In this document: positions 33,519-41,724 of the stretch, piece by piece | How the letters are laid out: each line of letters begins with the position of its first letter | How positions within the stretch are numbered: the stretch's first letter is position 1 | Source: Gemmatimonadota bacterium | GTDB lineage: Bacteria > 4572-55 > J002 | NCBI GenBank assembly: GCA_003697105.1 | Contig: RFFQ01000090.1 | Span: 1 to 46,920 of the forward strand | Direction of reading: 5' to 3' | Length of the DNA stretch: 46,920 nucleotides | The notes under the pieces: model-generated | What the model was told of the DNA's origin: nothing | The model's database searches: none | What the model saw: only the letters and a program-made list of their open reading frames with translations | Translations under genes and position numbers: made by a program

Positions 33519-34688
33519 ATGCACAGTACGATTCCCATGAGTTTTGTAACCAAAGCGGCTCAAACCCCAGATGTTCTCTTTGCCATCATGAAAGCGATGG
33601 CAAAAAAGAAGATGTTTTACCACTTTACGGATTATATGGCGTCCCAACATAAGCCGCTCCGGCTGGGTCAAATTAGCCTCAAGATTACCAATGTGTGCAA
33701 CTTGCGCTGTAAAATGTGCGGACAGTGGGGCGAAAGTGGTTACAACCATGATAAATCTATGGCAGAACTGAAAGATGTGGTCCCATTGGAAACGTATAAG
33801 CGCATGGTGGATGAAGTCAAAGACGATAAGCCGTTCATTTACATTTGGGGAGGCGAACCGTTTCTTTACCCGGATTTGGTGCCTTTGCTCCGGTACATGA
33901 AGGAAGCCGGTTTAATGGGTTCTGTGGTGACCAATGCGGTCAAACTGGAAAAATACGCCGCCGAACTGGTTGACATTGGTTGGGATGCCTTCATGGTTTC
34001 GCTGGATGGTCCAAAAGACATCCATAATGAAATTCGGGGACATAAAGATAGCTATGACAAAGTCATTAACGGTATTACCCGACTAAATGAAGAAAAGCGG
34101 AAACAAGGAAAGAAAAAACCGTATACCATGATTTTGACCACCGTCATGCGGGACAATCCCCATGCGTTGTTCGATGTCTTCAAAATTGCGGAAGAGATTG
34201 AAGCCAGTTGTGTGGTGGTCTATTATTGCTGGTTCACCACAGAAGAGCGGGTCAAAGACCATACCCGCCAGATGCAAACCCGCTTTAACATTACGCCGTG
34301 GTCGGTGCATGGCTATGTTGCCGATTGGCATAACGTGAATGACCGGGAGCTTCAGGAGAGTGTGAAACGCATTAAATCCCACAAATGGAAAATGCCTTAC
34401 GTCTTCTATCCCGAATTGGAGATTGAGGACATCCCCCGATACTACAATGAACCGGGGAATTTCTTCGGACATGACAAATGTATCTCGATCTACACCACCG
34501 CAGAAGTCATGCCCAATGGGGATGTGGCAACCTGTCGCGATTACCCAGATTACATCACAGGCAATATCCGTGAAAATTCCATCAAAGAGATTTTCAACAA
34601 TGACAAATACTGGAAATTCCGCAACTCCATCAAAAATGAGGGGATGTTACCAATCTGTGCCCGCTGTTGCGGATTAATGGGGTTTTAA
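33519..34688 (+). CDS. Radical SAM protein with SPASM-type C-terminus
   Basis: Radical S-adenosylmethionine enzyme of 389 residues. The 4Fe-4S motif is C60-NLR-C64-KM-C67, followed by the SAM-binding IWGGEPFLYPDLVPLL and MVSLDGPKDIHNEIRG. The C-terminal part has further cysteines (GHDKCISIYTT, GDVATCRDYPDYITGNIREN, ICARCCG) in the arrangement of a SPASM/Twitch auxiliary cluster domain. Such proteins modify peptides or act on small molecules; no precursor peptide gene is evident next to it. Strong ribosome site (AAGGAGAG). Confidence 0.9.
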   Translation: MHSTIPMSFVTKAAQTPDVLFAIMKAMAKKKMFYHFTDYMASQHKPLRLGQISLKITNVCNLRCKMCGQWGESGYNHDKSMAELKDVVPLETYKRMVDEVKDDKPFIYIWGGEPFLYPDLVPLLRYMKEAGLMGSVVTNAVKLEKYAAELVDIGWDAFMVSLDGPKDIHNEIRGHKDSYDKVINGITRLNEEKRKQGKKKPYTMILTTVMRDNPHALFDVFKIAEEIEASCVVVYYCWFTTEERVKDHTRQMQTRFNITPWSVHGYVADWHNVNDRELQESVKRIKSHKWKMPYVFYPELEIEDIPRYYNEPGNFFGHDKCISIYTTAEVMPNGDVATCRDYPDYITGNIRENSIKEIFNNDKYWKFRNSIKNEGMLPICARCCGLMGF

Positions 34689-34714: not shown

Positions 34715-34752
34715 TAAAAAAACGCCTCGATCTGAATGGATCGAGGCGTTTT
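34715..34752. terminator. Bidirectional intrinsic terminator
   Basis: AAAACGCCTCGATC / GATCGAGGCGTTTT, a 14-bp perfect stem with a 6-base loop and A/T flanks. It ends both the radical SAM gene and the convergent thiol-redox operon, whose last codon (TAA 34766-34768) lies 13 bases away. This placement supports the extended selenoprotein frame as the true operon end. Confidence 0.92.
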
Positions 34753-34765
34753 GCTATGTTGTGAT

Positions 34766-34957
34766 TTATGCAGATGGTGAAGATGAGGTTTCCTCTATCT
34801 CCAGGGGATCAACTGCAACGGTGTTGTCGTGCCGTGGAACCTCCACGTTACAGGCTTCGCCCATTCAGGTGGGCACCCCCATCGCCGGAAAGACCCAGCG
34901 CATCAGGATAAACCAACCCGCAAAAATTAACAACACGGAAAAATCTTCAAATTGCAT
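34766..34957 (-). CDS. Small membrane selenoprotein (candidate, TGA read as Sec)
   Basis: The start is ATG 34957 with TAAGGAG five bases upstream, that TAA being the OsmC stop. The frame gives MQFEDFSVLL, a membrane helix (about 8-26) and WVFPAMGVPT, then TGA (34865-34867), then MGEACNVEVPRHDN and an acidic Ser/Glu tail to TAA at 34766. Read through, it has 63 residues with Sec at 31 and a cysteine at 35 (U-x-x-x-C). A 15-base perfect hairpin with a GGU loop follows the TGA at SECIS distance. If TGA is a real stop, the product is a 30-residue membrane peptide. No family name is claimed. Last gene of the thiol operon. Confidence 0.7.
34833..34847 (-). promoter_or_regulatory. Bacterial SECIS-like hairpin of the small selenoprotein
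   Basis: In the RNA, CGUGGA-GGU-UCCACG, six perfect pairs. The loop begins 24 bases after the UGA, inside the 16-37 range described for bacterial SECIS elements, and starts with G. The A-GGU-U apex resembles the GGU loop of E. coli fdhF. A weaker lower stem (34828-34852) extends it. Confidence 0.7.
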
Positions 34958-34966
34958 GGGTGCTCC

Positions 34967-35404
34967 TTAGGGTTGAACGACAATTTCAGGTTCTAGGTGG
35001 ACGGCGGTTTTCATGGAATTGGAGATCAAACAAACCTTTTCCGCTTTCGTAATGATGCGTATCGCCCGGTCGCGTTTATCTTCGTGGGGAATGACAATGC
35101 GCGGTCGCAACGTGATTTCGGTAATCATAAACCCGTTTTCGGTCTTTTCCAGCACTCCTTCGGCACTGGAGGAGTAGCTGGTAAATTCCAGTTTAGAGTT
35201 TTCGGCAATCGCCAAAAAGGTGGTCATCAAACAGATTTCCGCCGATGCCACAAATAGATGTTCTGGTGACCAGATGCCGGGATGTCCTTTCGGGAACTCC
35301 GGAGGTGTTGCGACTTCTATATCAGGCAGACCCTCACTGGAGAGGATACCTTTCCGTTGTTCATCCCACCGGAGACTCGTCGTATAAATATGTTTATCTG
35401 CCAT
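34967..35404 (-). CDS. OsmC/Ohr family peroxiredoxin-like protein
   Basis: OsmC-family protein of 145 residues with the two family cysteines, C58 (SPEHLFVASAEICLMTTF) and C125 (AEKVCLISNSMK), and the glutamate in SPEHL. OsmC/Ohr proteins reduce organic hydroperoxides or handle persulfides. Selenocysteine forms of OsmC exist in other bacteria; here both positions are cysteine codons. The ATG lies two bases after the PDO stop, and its own stop is part of the ribosome site of the next gene. Confidence 0.9.
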   Translation of the reverse strand: MADKHIYTTSLRWDEQRKGILSSEGLPDIEVATPPEFPKGHPGIWSPEHLFVASAEICLMTTFLAIAENSKLEFTSYSSSAEGVLEKTENGFMITEITLRPRIVIPHEDKRDRAIRIITKAEKVCLISNSMKTAVHLEPEIVVQP

Positions 35405-35406
35405 TA

Positions 35407-36141
35407 TTATTCCTCTGATTCCACCGAATTTAACACATTCTGAATACCGGCAATCAATTGCTGCTCGCTGGGCTTACCGAGAATTTCATTTCCCCCATTG
35501 ATCAAGGTTTGCGGGACGCCTCGCGTTTGATATTTTTGCACCAGATGGGGAAACTCACCGGCCATAACCATCTCTGCCCGAATGTTAGAGTTATGCAATG
35601 CCATTTTTTGAGCAAGCTTCACGGCTTGCGGGCAGTGCGGTCAGGTAGGAGTTACCATGACCTCCAAAACGACCGGCGCCTCAACCTGTTGCAGTGATGC
35701 TTTCGTCTGAGAAGAAAGTGCCGGTAACTCGCCACCAATCATCTGAAGTGACTCCAGAAATGCCGGAAATTCGTATCCCCCGGGCACACCGTAAATCCGC
35801 ACATTGGTATCTTTCCTTTCCCGCAGGATGACCGTTGCCGGGATTTTATCAACCCCGTATTTTTGGGCAATGGCGGCATCTTTTTGCAGGTCATAGACTT
35901 CCAGTCGGATATTGGGGACTAAATGGGCAATTTCGGTCATCAGAGTACGGGCGGTTTCGCACGATTCACACTCGAATTCTTGGGTAAATTGCACCAAGGT
36001 GATTTTGGTATTTAATTCCTGAAGCTCATTTTTCACCCGTTCTTGTTGTTGTTCATTCAACAATTTGAATTCAAAGGGCTTTGAGCAGGCAACTAACAGC
36101 ACAAACACGGGTATAAGCATGAGATACGTTATTGATTTCAT
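35407..36141 (-). CDS. Lipoprotein PDO-type disulfide oxidoreductase, selenoprotein (TGA = Sec)
   Basis: Two-thioredoxin-fold protein disulfide oxidoreductase (PDO, glutaredoxin-like) of 244 residues when TGA 35641-35643 is read as Sec. Lipobox LLVAC (Cys 19) places it on the envelope; most PDOs are cytoplasmic. Fold 1 has C58-ES-C61 in FTQEFECESCETAR and the cis-Pro loop DKIPATVI. Fold 2 has VMVTPT-U167-PH-C170-PQAV and RGVPQTLIN. Normal PDO proteins read TPTCPxC here, so Sec replaces the nucleophilic cysteine exactly. Without read-through, the protein stops before its second active site, and the remaining 78 codons form an orphan frame that continues in perfect register. A SECIS-like hairpin follows. 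The start overlaps the DUF1858 stop (ATGA). Confidence 0.88.
35612..35629 (-). promoter_or_regulatory. Bacterial SECIS-like hairpin of the PDO selenoprotein
   Basis: In the RNA, GCAAGC-CGUGAA-GCUUGC, six perfect pairs. The loop begins 18 bases after the UGA and has G as its second base, both within the bacterial SECIS pattern. A further UGCC / GGCA lower stem pairs outside it. The element lies inside the coding region, as is usual in bacteria. Confidence 0.72.
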
Positions 36142-36347
36142 GGATTTTCCTCAAGCAAACGGTTCATCTCTTCCAAAATTTCATCTAAATTTTTGATACC
36201 CTTTTGGGCGGCGGCTTCACCTAATGTACCCCAGATGGCATCCCCACAAGCCAAACATCGGATGTTATAGGTGCGCAGGGGTTGGATCAACTGCGGATAA
36301 TTTTCCACAATCTCTTCGATGTAGGTATCAGCAGTGATTTTCGCCAT
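36138..36347 (-). CDS. DUF1858 domain protein
   Basis: Small protein of 69 residues formed by one DUF1858 domain: ITADTYIEEIVENYPQLIQP, then the C31-LA-C34 motif, then a helical end. In other proteins this domain occurs alone or beside redox or hybrid-cluster modules and is suspected of metal or thiol chemistry. Ribosome site AGGAGG seven bases before the ATG. It overlaps the PDO start by four bases. Confidence 0.85.
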   Translation of the reverse strand: MAKITADTYIEEIVENYPQLIQPLRTYNIRCLACGDAIWGTLGEAAAQKGIKNLDEILEEMNRLLEENP

Positions 36348-36361
36348 GTTGCACCTCCTGA

Positions 36362-36829
36362 TTAGGATTGTGCCCGAAGTTCTTGTTCGATACGCTCATC
36401 CATCTCACTGGAGATCGATTCGACAACCGGCATGGCGGACGTTGCCGCCGTGGTTTGTCTTCGCCAGTAGAGCAGAATTAAAATCACCATGATCACCCCC
36501 AAAACCAGCATAATCACGGGCATGATCCACGCCACCATATTAAAGCCTTCCCGGGTGGGGATCGATAAAATCTGGCTGCCATATTCGGCGATATAAAAGT
36601 CCACGATTTCATCTTTGGATTTACCTTCTTCCGCCATTTGATTGACTTCGCGGCGCATGGTCATTGCAATGTCGGATTCATGATCCGCAATGGGAGACCG
36701 CCAACAACACGGCGCCAGCAATTCTTGCTGTGCTTCGGCAGCAACTTTTTTCTGTTCTGGGGTCAGTTCCGCATAACTCGTCGTTGCGAAGACTAGCAAC
36801 GTAATTAATAGCCATCTGACACACTTCAT
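36362..36829 (-). CDS. CcmH-like membrane thiol protein
   Basis: Protein of 155 residues: signal peptide ([20 protein letters not shown]), a periplasmic CcmH/NrfF-like three-helix domain with ADHESDIAMTMRREVNQMA and VDFYIAEYGSQIL, a membrane helix at about 98-122 and a polar tail. The canonical LRCxxC heme-thiol motif is replaced by LLAPC41-C42-W, a vicinal cysteine pair. CcmH reduces apocytochrome c cysteines; no other cytochrome c maturation gene is in the window, so it may have been recruited to this redox operon (inference). The start overlaps the DUF6132-like gene's stop. Confidence 0.82.
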   Translation of the reverse strand: MKCVRWLLITLLVFATTSYAELTPEQKKVAAEAQQELLAPCCWRSPIADHESDIAMTMRREVNQMAEEGKSKDEIVDFYIAEYGSQILSIPTREGFNMVAWIMPVIMLVLGVIMVILILLYWRRQTTAATSAMPVVESISSEMDERIEQELRAQS

Positions 36830-37035
36830 GTGTTCACCTCCGGGTGGGGTTGTGATGATTCACGGCGCTTTTTCGGAGAATCCCAGCCGAGTATCAAGCC
36901 AAATAAGGCTCCGTAAAGCGTGCTGAACCACGGATTTGCGGTAATAGGGCATGTGCCGCTGAGGCAACCCACGTATTGGTAATATAAAAATCCGGCTGTC
37001 GCACCGAGAACAGTAAAAATAAGTCCCTTTTTCAT
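36826..37035 (-). CDS. DUF6132-like small membrane protein
   Basis: Protein of 69 residues with two membrane segments (about 3-20 and 36-52) joined by a conserved loop, [20 protein letters not shown] (C24, C29). This cysteine-containing loop is typical of a small family found beside thioredoxins and sulfur-transport genes in FCB bacteria (recalled). Overlaps its neighbours by four bases on both sides. Confidence 0.78.
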
Positions 37036-37400
37036 GCGAATTGGTCTAACACCTCATCAAATTTATTTTTTAGAGCCGGTTTCGGTAATGCCCCGACCAC
37101 TCGATCAATTTCTTCACCATTTTTGAAAAAAATCAGGGTTGGAATGCCCCGGATGCCAAATTTTTGCGGCGTCTGCGGGTTGTCATCCGTATTGAGCTTA
37201 CAAACTTTGATCTTATGTTGGTATTCCGCGGCAAGCTCTTCCACAATGGGTCCCACCATCCGGCACGGACCGCACCACGGTGCCCAAAAATCTACCAACA
37301 CTGGTATGTCAGATTTTAATACATCGGTTTCAAAGGAGTCATCGGTTACGGTGACGGCAACATGGGTTTCATCTCTTTGTCCCTTGGAAAATAATCCCAT
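37032..37400 (-). CDS. Thioredoxin
   Basis: Classical cytoplasmic thioredoxin of 122 residues with [20 protein letters not shown] (C43, C46) and the cis-Pro loop [11 protein letters not shown]. It has a short charged N-terminal extension and no signal peptide. First gene of the operon trx-DUF6132-ccmH-like-DUF1858-PDO(Sec)-osmC-small Sec protein. It could supply electrons to the envelope members through a membrane partner, and to the Tpx proteins (inference). Confidence 0.94.
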
Positions 37401-37437: not shown

Positions 37438-37659
37438 GAGGGATGCCTTTCTTCACCCCAAATAAATTAAAATGATAACAGTCCTGAACCGAAGCCAACC
37501 TTTTACCGCTGGCTTCAAATCTGCTTGATCGAAGTCAAAATATAGTAAAATTGACCCCAAAAGACAACGGGTTATTTCAACCCGGTTATTTAGATTACCG
37601 GAATAAGGTCACTTTTGCGTCACAAATTCATCTATTTTTCACCGAATTGGGAGGTTATC

Positions 37660-40600
37660 ATGTCACATCGCATCGTCATAAATGTCCTTCTTTATATTTC
37701 TCTGATATTCTCACCCGTCCTTTTTGCCGAAACCGCACAACAGGTGCTGGATCAAGCGCCTACCGGCTCGTATCTCATCCCCGGTACGCTTATTTTACAG
37801 TTGAATGAAATTCCAGCGACCGTGGAATCCCACGAAGGAATCATCCGCACCGGCATCGCACCAATTGACGCATTGAACGCCCAGTTTGGTGTGTATCATA
37901 TGGCACCGCTTTTCCCCTTAGACCCCACCGCACCAACCATTGGGCAGGAGCGTTTAGCTGGCTTTTACCGGATTCAGTTTCCGGCGGAGGTTGCCCTCGA
38001 TCCGGTGAAAACCGCTTACGAGCATCTGGCCGAAATCGATCAGGTGCAATTTGATGTTGCTTGCCCGGTCTATGAAACGCCCAATGATGGGTTTTTCGGT
38101 TCGCAGTGGGGCATGGTTCGTATCGATGCCCCAGCCGCCTGGGATGTGACGCATGGTAGCACTGCGGTGTCACTGGGGTCATGTGATACGGGGGTGGATT
38201 GGAATCACCCGGATTTGGGAGCCGACATCTGGCAAAACTTGGCGGAAGATGCCGATAATGATGGCCAAACCTTGATCTTTGAAGATGGCGAGTGGCAATA
38301 CGACCCGGACGACCTAAACAACACGGATGATGATGGCAACGGCTACATAGATGACTTAATCGGTTGGGATTGGGTCACCGGTGTGGATGGCGCACCCGGT
38401 GAAGATGATCAAAATCCCGATAATAATCCGATGGATTTTGACGGTCACGGAACCCATGTGGGCGGTATTCTGGGCGCCAGTACCAACAATGAAATTGGTG
38501 TTGCCGGAGTCGGCTACAATTGCCGCGTCATGTCACTGCGGATTGGCTGGCAAGACCCCAACGGTGGCGGATATGTGGGCATGTCCTTTGCCGCCCAAGC
38601 GATCCGCTACGCGACAAACCGAGGTGTTACCGCCATCAATTGCAGTTGGGGGTCATCTAACTCCGGCGGCTTGGGTGCCGCGGTGGATTATGCCGTGGCG
38701 AATGGTGTGTTGCTCGTAACGGCGGCGGGTAATGAAGGCTCGAACAATCCGTCGTATCTCAGCAGTCGGTCTGATGTGATGTCAGTTGCCGCCACCAATC
38801 AAGCCGATCAAAAAGCCGGTTTTTCCAACTATGGCTCGTGGGTGGATGTTTCGGCGCCGGGGGTCAATATCCGTAGTACCATGTTTAATAACCGGTATGA
38901 ATATCTTAGTGGCACCTCAATGGCGGCGCCCCATGTGGCAGGTCTGGCAGGTCTGGTTAAATCCCTCGCTCCTGATTGGGACGGGGCAGCGATTTTTGCA
39001 CAAATTGAGTCCACAACGGATAACATTGATGCGATCAATCCCGATTATGCCGGAATGCTGGGCAGTGGGCGTATCAACGCCTTTCGGGCGGTGGAAACAC
39101 TGGGCGTCTTTCCAGCGTTGGAGTTTGAACCTGAACAATTCACCGTTGAACTCCGGCAAGGGGATGCCCCGTCCGAGCAGATATTGACCTTGTGGAATGT
39201 GGGAGAAGCACCGTTGGAGTACGCCCTTTCCGATAATCGATTTTGGATTAATCTACCGGATGAGCCGGATGGCATCATTGAACCCGGTGAAAGTGAAGAG
39301 ATCGTCATCCGCATTGGCTACCAGCAATTAGAACCCGGCGATTATACAGGGCGCATCTTACTGGAAACCAATGACCCAGCACATGCTCAGGTGGAAATTC
39401 CGGTAACCTTAACCGTCACCGAACCGTCCATTGACCCCATTGCCGTGCATGTGCCCACGGGCTTGGTTGCCGCGCCGGGTACAACGGTGAATGTACCGGT
39501 CATTACGGCGCCGGTCTCGCCAGATTTAGAAGTGCTAGGGGTCCAAATCGAACTCACCTACGATCCGTCAGTCCTGCAAGCAACTGGTTTTAGTACAGAT
39601 GGGACATTGCTGGATGGGTGGATTATGAATTTCAACCCCAATGAGGCAGGTTTGGTAGTACTGAACGGCTTCAATCTCAATTCCTTGGCAGGTGAAGGTG
39701 TATTAGCCTTTCTCCAATTTGAGGTTATCGGAGAAATGGGTGCACAAAGTGTGCTCCATTTTCAGTCGTTTATGTACAACGAAGGTGAGCCGCCAGTTAT
39801 CACCCAGGATGGTGATCTTACCGTCGGGGCATTGCTGACGGTCTCTCTCCCCCCGCACGCTAGCGGGCAACCGGGTGAGTTCGTTAGACTACCGGTACAA
39901 ATCCATGAAGATGTCTCCGGAATGGGAATTTTTGCCTTCCAGATGGAGGTCAGCTATGATCCGGCAGTACTAGAATTGGTCAATTATCAGTCGGAAGGCA
40001 CCCTGACCGAAGGCTGGTTTATGAACCTGAATGCAGGCGAAGGCAATTTTATCCTAAACGGCTTTAGTGCAGAGGAGATGAGCGGCAGCGGTACCCTGAT
40101 TGAGCTGGAATTTGAGGTGGTGGGTAACGTGAATGATGAAACCAGCCTGCATTTTGAAGCGTTCCAGTTCAATGAAGGTGATCCGGCGGCACATACCCGG
40201 GATGGGCATTTTCGCATTCCGTTGAATGTCTTTTTACCCCCGGATGCGGCGGCGGGACCGGGTCAGACCATCCCTCTACCAGTGATGCTGGGCACCGATG
40301 TCACCGGTTTGGAAATCTTTGCCTTTGAATTGCGCATCCGCTTTGATGAAACGATTTTAAACCCAATAGGCGCCATCACCGCCGGTACCTTAACCGACGG
40401 TTGGACAATCGCCCAAAATCTTGAAAACCCGGGTGAATTCTATGTCAACGGATTTAATATCAGTGAGTTAGCCGGTCAAGGAGTGATGATCCTGCTCAAC
40501 ATGGAAGTTATCGGGGAGATCGATCAGGAGACCCCCCTCGAGTTCATTGAATTTATATTTAACGAAGGTGTTCCGGCAGCAGATACACACAACGGGCATT

Positions 40601-41724
40601 TTACGGTGCGCCAAGTGACCTTTTCGATTCGCGGCTCTGCCCATTACCGCGATGCGCCAGATCAACCGGTGGGGAATATCCATTTAACCTTGAGCGGCGA
40701 AACGGAATTTTCCACCGTAACAACTCCTGAAGGGGAATTTATCTTCACCGATATTCCCGGCGCGGATTATCTGCTAACCCCCGAAAAAACCGACGAGATC
40801 AACGGTATCAGCCCATTTGATGCCGCGCGAGTCGCACAATACGTGGCAGAATTATACGAATTTACCCCCTACCAACAACTGGCGGCAGATGTGACCGGTA
40901 ACGGGGAAATTTCCACTTACGATGCGGCACAGATTGCACTCTATAGCGCGGAACTGCCACACGCTTCTGTCACCGGTACGTGGACATTTGACCCGCTAAC
41001 CTACGCTTACCAACCTCTGGATGCGGATCAAATCGATCAGAATTTTACGACCATTTTGATGGGTGAAGTTTCTGGAAATTGGGCATCTTCAAGGGATAAA
41101 AGCGGATGGTTCAAAGGTGAAACGGCAAGTATCGAACGCCCGCAGGTGAACATCAAAATGGCACAAAATCGAGTACAACTGGTTGAAAATATGGACAATG
41201 TGATTGCATTTGAATTCATCATAGCGTCGGAGATCGATCCGGAAGTGCAACTGGCAGAAACGGTTCCGGCAGATTGGGTGTTACTGGCAAACCGCTTGGA
41301 TGTATCGCGCTGGTATGTAGGCGCATATGGAACGACGCCATTAACATCCCCCGATCTGCTACGCATAGGGAACGGAACACATCTGACCATTCTTTCCGGG
41401 CAAATCAATGAACAACCGGTTCGCTGGGTTGTCGGTCAGGAAACCCTGACGCCCCAAGCCTACGTCCTGCACCCAAACTATCCCAATCCCTTCAATCCCC
41501 AAACAACGATCCGGTTTGATCTGCCTTCCGCGGATCAGATCAGTCTGAATATTTATAATTTGAGTGGAAAATTAGTACAGCAAGTTATCCAAAATCAATA
41601 TTACTCCGCCGGATCGCACACAGTCGAATGGGACGCCAGCAATTTATCCTCCGGGGTGTATCTCTATCAACTGGAAACCCTCCACCACCAATCCCAAATC
41701 CGGCGCGCCGTGGTACTGAAGTAA
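37660..41724 (+). CDS. Secreted subtilase with three cohesin-like modules, dockerin-like module and sorting domain
   Basis: Protein of 1354 residues from ATG 37660 (GGGAGG five bases upstream), with a signal peptide. An N-terminal propeptide-like region precedes an S8 peptidase (about 165-490) with triad D176 (SCDTGVDWNHPDLG), H263 (DFDGHGTHVGG) and S420 (SGTSMAAPHVAG). A Trp-containing beta domain follows (about 500-585). Three similar modules at about 590-720, 724-850 and 854-980 (each with FEVIGE/FEVVGN-type and FNEGxPA motifs) resemble cohesins. A carboxypeptidase-like beta domain (985-1045) and a dockerin-like pair of helices (GISPFDAARVAQYVAELY; DVTGNGEISTYDAAQIALY) come next. The tail (1267-1354) is the NYPNPFNPQTTIRFDLP sorting domain. 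Extracellular protease. Confidence 0.88.
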   Translation: MSHRIVINVLLYISLIFSPVLFAETAQQVLDQAPTGSYLIPGTLILQLNEIPATVESHEGIIRTGIAPIDALNAQFGVYHMAPLFPLDPTAPTIGQERLAGFYRIQFPAEVALDPVKTAYEHLAEIDQVQFDVACPVYETPNDGFFGSQWGMVRIDAPAAWDVTHGSTAVSLGSCDTGVDWNHPDLGADIWQNLAEDADNDGQTLIFEDGEWQYDPDDLNNTDDDGNGYIDDLIGWDWVTGVDGAPGEDDQNPDNNPMDFDGHGTHVGGILGASTNNEIGVAGVGYNCRVMSLRIGWQDPNGGGYVGMSFAAQAIRYATNRGVTAINCSWGSSNSGGLGAAVDYAVANGVLLVTAAGNEGSNNPSYLSSRSDVMSVAATNQADQKAGFSNYGSWVDVSAPGVNIRSTMFNNRYEYLSGTSMAAPHVAGLAGLVKSLAPDWDGAAIFAQIESTTDNIDAINPDYAGMLGSGRINAFRAVETLGVFPALEFEPEQFTVELRQGDAPSEQILTLWNVGEAPLEYALSDNRFWINLPDEPDGIIEPGESEEIVIRIGYQQLEPGDYTGRILLETNDPAHAQVEIPVTLTVTEPSIDPIAVHVPTGLVAAPGTTVNVPVITAPVSPDLEVLGVQIELTYDPSVLQATGFSTDGTLLDGWIMNFNPNEAGLVVLNGFNLNSLAGEGVLAFLQFEVIGEMGAQSVLHFQSFMYNEGEPPVITQDGDLTVGALLTVSLPPHASGQPGEFVRLPVQIHEDVSGMGIFAFQMEVSYDPAVLELVNYQSEGTLTEGWFMNLNAGEGNFILNGFSAEEMSGSGTLIELEFEVVGNVNDETSLHFEAFQFNEGDPAAHTRDGHFRIPLNVFLPPDAAAGPGQTIPLPVMLGTDVTGLEIFAFELRIRFDETILNPIGAITAGTLTDGWTIAQNLENPGEFYVNGFNISELAGQGVMILLNMEVIGEIDQETPLEFIEFIFNEGVPAADTHNGHFTVRQVTFSIRGSAHYRDAPDQPVGNIHLTLSGETEFSTVTTPEGEFIFTDIPGADYLLTPEKTDEINGISPFDAARVAQYVAELYEFTPYQQLAADVTGNGEISTYDAAQIALYSAELPHASVTGTWTFDPLTYAYQPLDADQIDQNFTTILMGEVSGNWASSRDKSGWFKGETASIERPQVNIKMAQNRVQLVENMDNVIAFEFIIASEIDPEVQLAETVPADWVLLANRLDVSRWYVGAYGTTPLTSPDLLRIGNGTHLTILSGQINEQPVRWVVGQETLTPQAYVLHPNYPNPFNPQTTIRFDLPSADQISLNIYNLSGKLVQQVIQNQYYSAGSHTVEWDASNLSSGVYLYQLETLHHQSQIRRAVVLK

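Follow-up and report, generated by a model that had tools for sequence, protein, structure and literature searches.

An apparently undescribed family of very small membrane selenoproteins, predicted from the last gene of a thiol-redox operon

SELENOK and SELENOS are small single-pass membrane selenoproteins of eukaryotes, in which selenocysteine (Sec) is located in the cytosolic part of the protein. Their Sec lies near the C-terminus in another motif, and their SECIS element is of the eukaryotic type and resides in the 3' UTR. The protein of 63 residues described here resembles them in being short and single-pass, with Sec assigned to the cytosolic side; this likeness is one of general layout and implies no homology.

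For prokaryotes, Table 1 of a 2026 review lists 119 selenoprotein families or subfamilies (PMC13188914). Small bacterial selenoproteins covered by this review, such as those with a CC/Se motif (NF041239), KCU-star (NF033934) and dual CXXC (NF041197), are also short and carry Sec in a Cys-rich motif (PMC13188914), but their motifs (CxxU, CU and RxU/GxU) differ from that of the present protein. The hypothetical selenoprotein GOS_A likewise lacks an assigned function and a known domain; it was represented in the GOS samples by 155 Cys homologues and 2 Sec forms, a Cys/Sec ratio that is the reverse of that found here (PMC2398784). This comparison rests on the counts and not on sequence.

Neither the motif GVPTU nor a matching description is present in the 119-family table (PMC13188914). 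Searches of 38 members against NCBIfam (June 2026 release) and Pfam gave no match, only scattered hits with E values of 0.02-0.1, and GVPTU was not found as a selenoprotein motif in the literature searched, which did not include subscription papers and preprints. Note that the families of Haft and Tolstoy (2025) were covered only through NCBIfam and the review table. The suggestion in the initial annotation of this DNA that the protein may be undescribed holds as far as it was tested against Pfam, NCBIfam, the 119-family table and the literature. In our view the novelty lies in the selenoprotein family, which is apparently undescribed and unusual in form, and not in the mechanism of recoding.

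The window, which is the whole stretch of 46,920 nucleotides that was analyzed, contains seven tightly packed genes on the minus strand. These encode, in order, a thioredoxin, DUF6132, a CcmH-like protein, DUF1858, a Sec-containing PDO/glutaredoxin-like protein, OsmC and the selenoprotein of 63 residues, so that the partners in the operon are thiol/redox proteins or small membrane proteins. The features are as follows.

37032-37400, minus strand: thioredoxin gene (CGPC), the first gene of the operon, with TGA as stop codon
36826-37035, minus strand: gene for the DUF6132 small membrane protein (PF19628)
36362-36829, minus strand: CcmH-like gene (PF03918)
36138-36347, minus strand: DUF1858 gene (PF08984)
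35407-36141, minus strand: gene for the second selenoprotein of the operon, PDO/glutaredoxin-like, with UxxC and its Sec TGA at 35641-35643 (TIGR02187, 236 bits)
34967-35404, minus strand: OsmC-family gene (PF02566), separated by 9 bases from the selenoprotein gene
34963-34968, minus strand: ribosome-binding site AAGGAG, read from the sequence, which shares bases with the OsmC stop codon
34766-34957, minus strand: selenoprotein gene of 63 codons, MQFEDFSVLLIFAGWFILMRWVFPAMGVPT-U-MGEAC..., supported by its frame and by a family in four phyla
34883-34954, minus strand: predicted transmembrane helix, residues 2-25 in the AlphaFold2 model
34865-34867, minus strand: putative Sec codon TGA, residue 31, supported by a TGA/Cys-only column and a downstream hairpin
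34850-34852, minus strand: codon TGT for Cys36, the partner residue five positions past Sec, Cys in 93/103 members with both Cys codons in use
34833-34847, minus strand: putative SECIS apical hairpin CGTGGA-GGT-TCCACG, supported by hairpin statistics across relatives
34719-34752, minus strand: terminator common to the operon and a convergent radical SAM gene

The initial annotation had given the correct coordinates of the 63-residue frame without a strand; the gene lies on the minus strand, and the plus-strand frame at this place is unrelated. Its claim of a well-initiated frame was borne out by AAGGAG at 34968-34963, followed after a spacer of 5 bases by the ATG at 34957-34955. Thirty codons precede the TGA and 32 follow it before the TAA at 34768-34766, and the full read-through product, MQFEDFSVLLIFAGWFILMRWVFPAMGVPTUMGEACNVEVPRHDNTVAVDPLEIEETSSSPSA, thus comprises 63 residues. 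The frame is open past the TGA and ends 13 bases before the terminator (34752-34719), as had been stated, and the adjacent second Sec gene was also confirmed (TGA at 35643-35641 in the TIGR02187 protein). In contrast, the claimed spacing U-x-x-x-C was incorrect, since the sequence U31-M-G-E-A-C36 corresponds to U-x4-C. The reported 6-bp stem with a GGU loop was found, 18-32 bases past the TGA, but the position given for the start of the stem, 24 bases past the TGA, is that of the loop. Standard gene-calling programs would cut a gene of this kind short or miss it, and the family seems to have been overlooked by annotation. The terminator is a strong, bidirectional element formed by a single near-perfect inverted repeat, and the convergent gene that uses it encodes a radical SAM/SPASM protein (33519-34688). 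When the operon was scanned against Rfam, only chance matches were obtained.

The closest comparison within the operon is the PDO/glutaredoxin-like selenoprotein, which belongs to a known family (TIGR02187) and whose hairpin has a G in the loop. Both are Sec-containing thiol redox proteins of the same operon, with Sec near a downstream Cys and a SECIS-type hairpin. However, TIGR02187 proteins have two thioredoxin folds and UxxC, and no family match is common to both.

Our overall best explanation, with a probability of about 0.9, is that the gene encodes an inner-membrane selenoprotein of 63 residues produced by Sec read-through, for which a redox relay is inferred. AlphaFold2 predicted one helix followed by a disordered tail. 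The helix covers residues 2-25, with pLDDT of about 90 over the first 20 residues, and the sequence past residue 40 is weakly conserved. Numbered relative to Sec, positions -26 to -13 are hydrophobic across the members. A single hydrophobic helix of membrane-spanning length is present, although membrane insertion itself is predicted only. The mean net charge is -0.8 before the helix and +1.7 just after it; from these flanking charges and the positive-inside rule, we infer that Sec is on the cytoplasmic side. A thioredoxin fold with UxxC or CxxU is absent, as the protein consists of one helix, a disordered tail and U-x4-C, and a PDB sequence search detected no relative. Because most selenoproteins have a thioredoxin fold and this very small protein does not, a role of Sec at the membrane surface becomes testable.

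Relatives were not detected when GTDB contigs were scanned with the single window protein as query. The small phylum of the window, sampled as two genomes, yielded one relative, in Candidatus Cloacimonetes bacterium 4572_55, which shares 38% identity and carries a TGA at the corresponding position. The productive scan of GTDB contigs used a bait alignment, in which the first and fourth rows and the letters of the Sec column were invented to widen the pattern; it returned eight relatives (from Cloacimonetes, Acidobacteria, Pirellulales, KSB1 and others). All later searches used profiles of real members only and detected the family in 53 of 82 KSB1 genomes, 85 of 396 sampled Acidobacteriota genomes and 25 of 294 Planctomycetota genomes. 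The family is thus known from four phyla, including that of the window, and many of the carriers are uncultured soil and sediment bacteria. It is common in poorly cultured phyla, with about one in five sampled Acidobacteriota genomes and most KSB1 genomes carrying it. A plasmid tblastn search with both first members and searches of viral contigs gave chance matches only. The consensus is a single helix followed by ...RWVLPxLGVPT-U-MSxxC. After removal of duplicates, 103 distinct members remained for the counts of codons and conservation.

A DUF6132 gene lies close by in 13 KSB1 loci, in most of them immediately upstream of the selenoprotein gene, and 16 loci, mainly of this phylum, have a gene for an FmdB-type zinc ribbon just after the selenoprotein gene. 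The FmdB-type gene is followed in KSB1 by a WCHWC thioredoxin-like gene (which belongs to a thioredoxin cluster of 12 loci) or by a multihaem cytochrome gene (12 loci). Several KSB1 loci (L163, L165, L171, L178 and others) show the order DUF6132, selenoprotein, FmdB-type zinc ribbon, thioredoxin-like protein. DUF6132 has a conserved GCxxGxCP motif, and no description of it was found in the literature searched. The FmdB-type gene was itself considered as a selenoprotein gene, as many copies have a TGA near the C-terminus; other relatives seem to end there with another stop codon, and this TGA is probably a normal stop. The neighbours in Acidobacteriota include DUF302, OsmC, YgaP-like membrane proteins and SufS, as well as a rhodanese-fused pyridine nucleotide-disulfide oxidoreductase or RND efflux genes. 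The neighbourhood differs between lineages and no universal neighbour gene was present among the loci examined; what the neighbours have in common is a link to thiol, persulfide and redox chemistry.

Because the neighbours share this chemistry, we favour a relay as the mechanism. On the comparative evidence, SelB and tRNA-Sec act on the hairpin 18-32 bases downstream, so that UGA codon 31 is decoded as Sec. The helix would be oriented N-out/C-in, placing U31 on the cytoplasmic face just past the membrane, where U31 and C36 may form a selenenylsulfide. A thioredoxin-fold partner, here the thioredoxin or the Sec-containing PDO of the operon, would reduce this bond, and the protein would then pass electrons at the membrane to oxidized thiols, persulfides or peroxides as substrates. 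Apart from the decoding, these steps are inferred, and the role as a membrane-anchored selenol/thiol relay is the least certain of them, to be taken as tentative and with the odds somewhat against it. Similarly speculative is the idea that the protein is the membrane element of an unrecognized small redox module made up of DUF6132, the 63-residue selenoprotein, the FmdB-type zinc ribbon and a thioredoxin-fold or multihaem protein. If such a module exists, a single Sec located at the membrane surface would move electrons or sulfane sulfur from one to the other of cytoplasm and membrane.

The same loci allow another role, in which the protein is an accessory subunit of another membrane protein, such as DUF6132 or a cytochrome, and Sec serves assembly and not turnover. 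The minimal size, the single helix with strongly conserved positions and the proximity of DUF6132 in the 13 KSB1 loci are in accord with this possibility; however, none of the potential partner genes occurs at all loci, and we consider it rather unlikely, slightly more so than the relay. Less likely still is a function in metal or metalloid handling or in support of efflux, with Sec as a soft-metal ligand at the membrane. Several Acidobacteriota loci adjoin genes for RND efflux systems, a heavy-metal P-type ATPase or ArsR-type regulators, and one branch keeps Sec without a second thiol. This branch comprises nine Acidobacteriota members (L209-L217), in which the Sec TGA and the hairpin are kept, Cys at +5 is absent and the tail is P-x-P-like (UAVPQP, USVPDP and similar). 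These members represent Sec without a resolving thiol, and the U-C relay is therefore not universal. In contrast, the window operon and most KSB1 loci have genes for thioredoxin-fold proteins, DUF6132, zinc ribbons or multihaem cytochromes and no metal efflux genes. Both of these alternatives to the relay remain open.

The reading of the TGA itself is better supported. The codon at this column is TGA in 97, TGT in four and TGC in two of the 103 members, while the next in-frame stop further on is TAG in 35, TGA in 35 and TAA in 27. Since these true stops are mixed, the restriction to TGA is specific to the Sec column. The initial annotation had proposed a search for homologues with Cys at position 31, and six were found; their frame is open and their tail is of the same MSGxC type. 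It had also named, as findings that would refute read-through, homologues ending at residue 30 with varied stop codons or a genome without Sec machinery. Neither was seen: all 103 members have TGA or Cys, with TAA in a single extra KSB1 genome (L194), and the genome of the window contains tRNA-Sec and a full-length SelB (384 bits, above the cut-off). The tail is still recognizable and the hairpin poor in L194 (G751:C54), and no tRNA gene was found near selA in this genome; whether this is a lost or damaged copy, a sequencing error or an odd recoding is not resolved. Nine weak, "stop-free" Acidobacteriota matches appeared to be exceptions, but their alignments had ended before the column, and all nine proved to have TGA when read directly; they are the members of the branch without Cys at +5 and come in addition to the 103.

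Conservation extends across the codon. P at -7 and G at -4 are invariant, T at -1 is present in 102 of the 103 members, and W/Y at -16 and L at -13 are other strongly conserved helix positions. Downstream, some members use TGC and others TGT for the Cys at +5, and the Ser at +2 is encoded by any of its six codons, so that conservation past the TGA acts on the protein. On the other hand, the three codon positions have nearly equal shares of the substitutions downstream of the TGA (255 at position 3, 246 at position 1 and 206 at position 2), in contrast to the pattern upstream, which weakens the coding signal there; such a spread is expected for a short, fast-changing tail that also contains a SECIS.

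The hairpin of the window is not significant alone (z -1.5) but is significant as part of the set across 97 relatives. A hairpin of at least 5 pairs in the expected range was present in 91 of the 97 TGA members, compared with 49±5 when synonymous codons were randomized, and one with G in the first two loop positions was also present in 91, compared with 32±4. The commonest register is shared by 43 members, all of which have G as the first loop base. At four of their five innermost pairs, some members have G-C and others C-G, with A-T or T-A in addition. These pair swaps in a fixed register are compensatory changes. No SECIS-type hairpin was found in any of the six Cys members. A reading as an ordinary membrane peptide of 30 residues that ends at the TGA and is followed by a conserved RNA hairpin, for example a regulatory element, is favoured by a helix that is complete before the TGA and by a disordered, poorly conserved tail beyond residue 40; however, the stops at the column, which are TGA in all but one case while the true stops are mixed, the Cys members with their open frame, the use of both codons for Cys at +5 and the loss of the hairpin in Cys forms make this very improbable.

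The Sec column, the hairpin set and the Sec machinery thus support the initial view that read-through is likely, and UGA codon 31 is almost certainly read as Sec, although no experiment shows selenium in the protein. That the TGA is instead decoded as another residue, by reassignment to Trp or by leaky read-through, fits the open frame but is scarcely credible, given that TGA is an ordinary stop in the selenoprotein's own operon, as judged from the ATGA overlaps at three gene pairs, that the alternative residue in relatives is Cys and never Trp, and that the genomes encode tRNA-Sec and SelB alongside a SelB-type hairpin.

The distribution of selA follows that of the codon. Genomes with TGA members encode selA in 79 of 84 cases in Acidobacteriota (background 252/396, p = 2e-12), 48 of 51 in KSB1 (background 63/82) and 18 of 21 in Planctomycetota (background 193/294, p = 0.056, weak alone). 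Note that these p-values are optimistic, as related genomes are not independent. The genomes with TGA members that lack selA are drafts and may be incomplete. In contrast, selA is present in only two of six genomes with Cys members (p = 7e-4 against TGA members), the other four lacking it. The repeated switches from Sec to Cys, in which the hairpin and in most cases also selA have disappeared, are a natural experiment on the loss of recoding.

Judged by eye, the gene divergent from the redox operon (37615-41724, plus strand) seems to encode a large, secreted protein that is subtilisin-like, contains cohesin/dockerin-like segments and has a sorting-type domain at its C-terminus.
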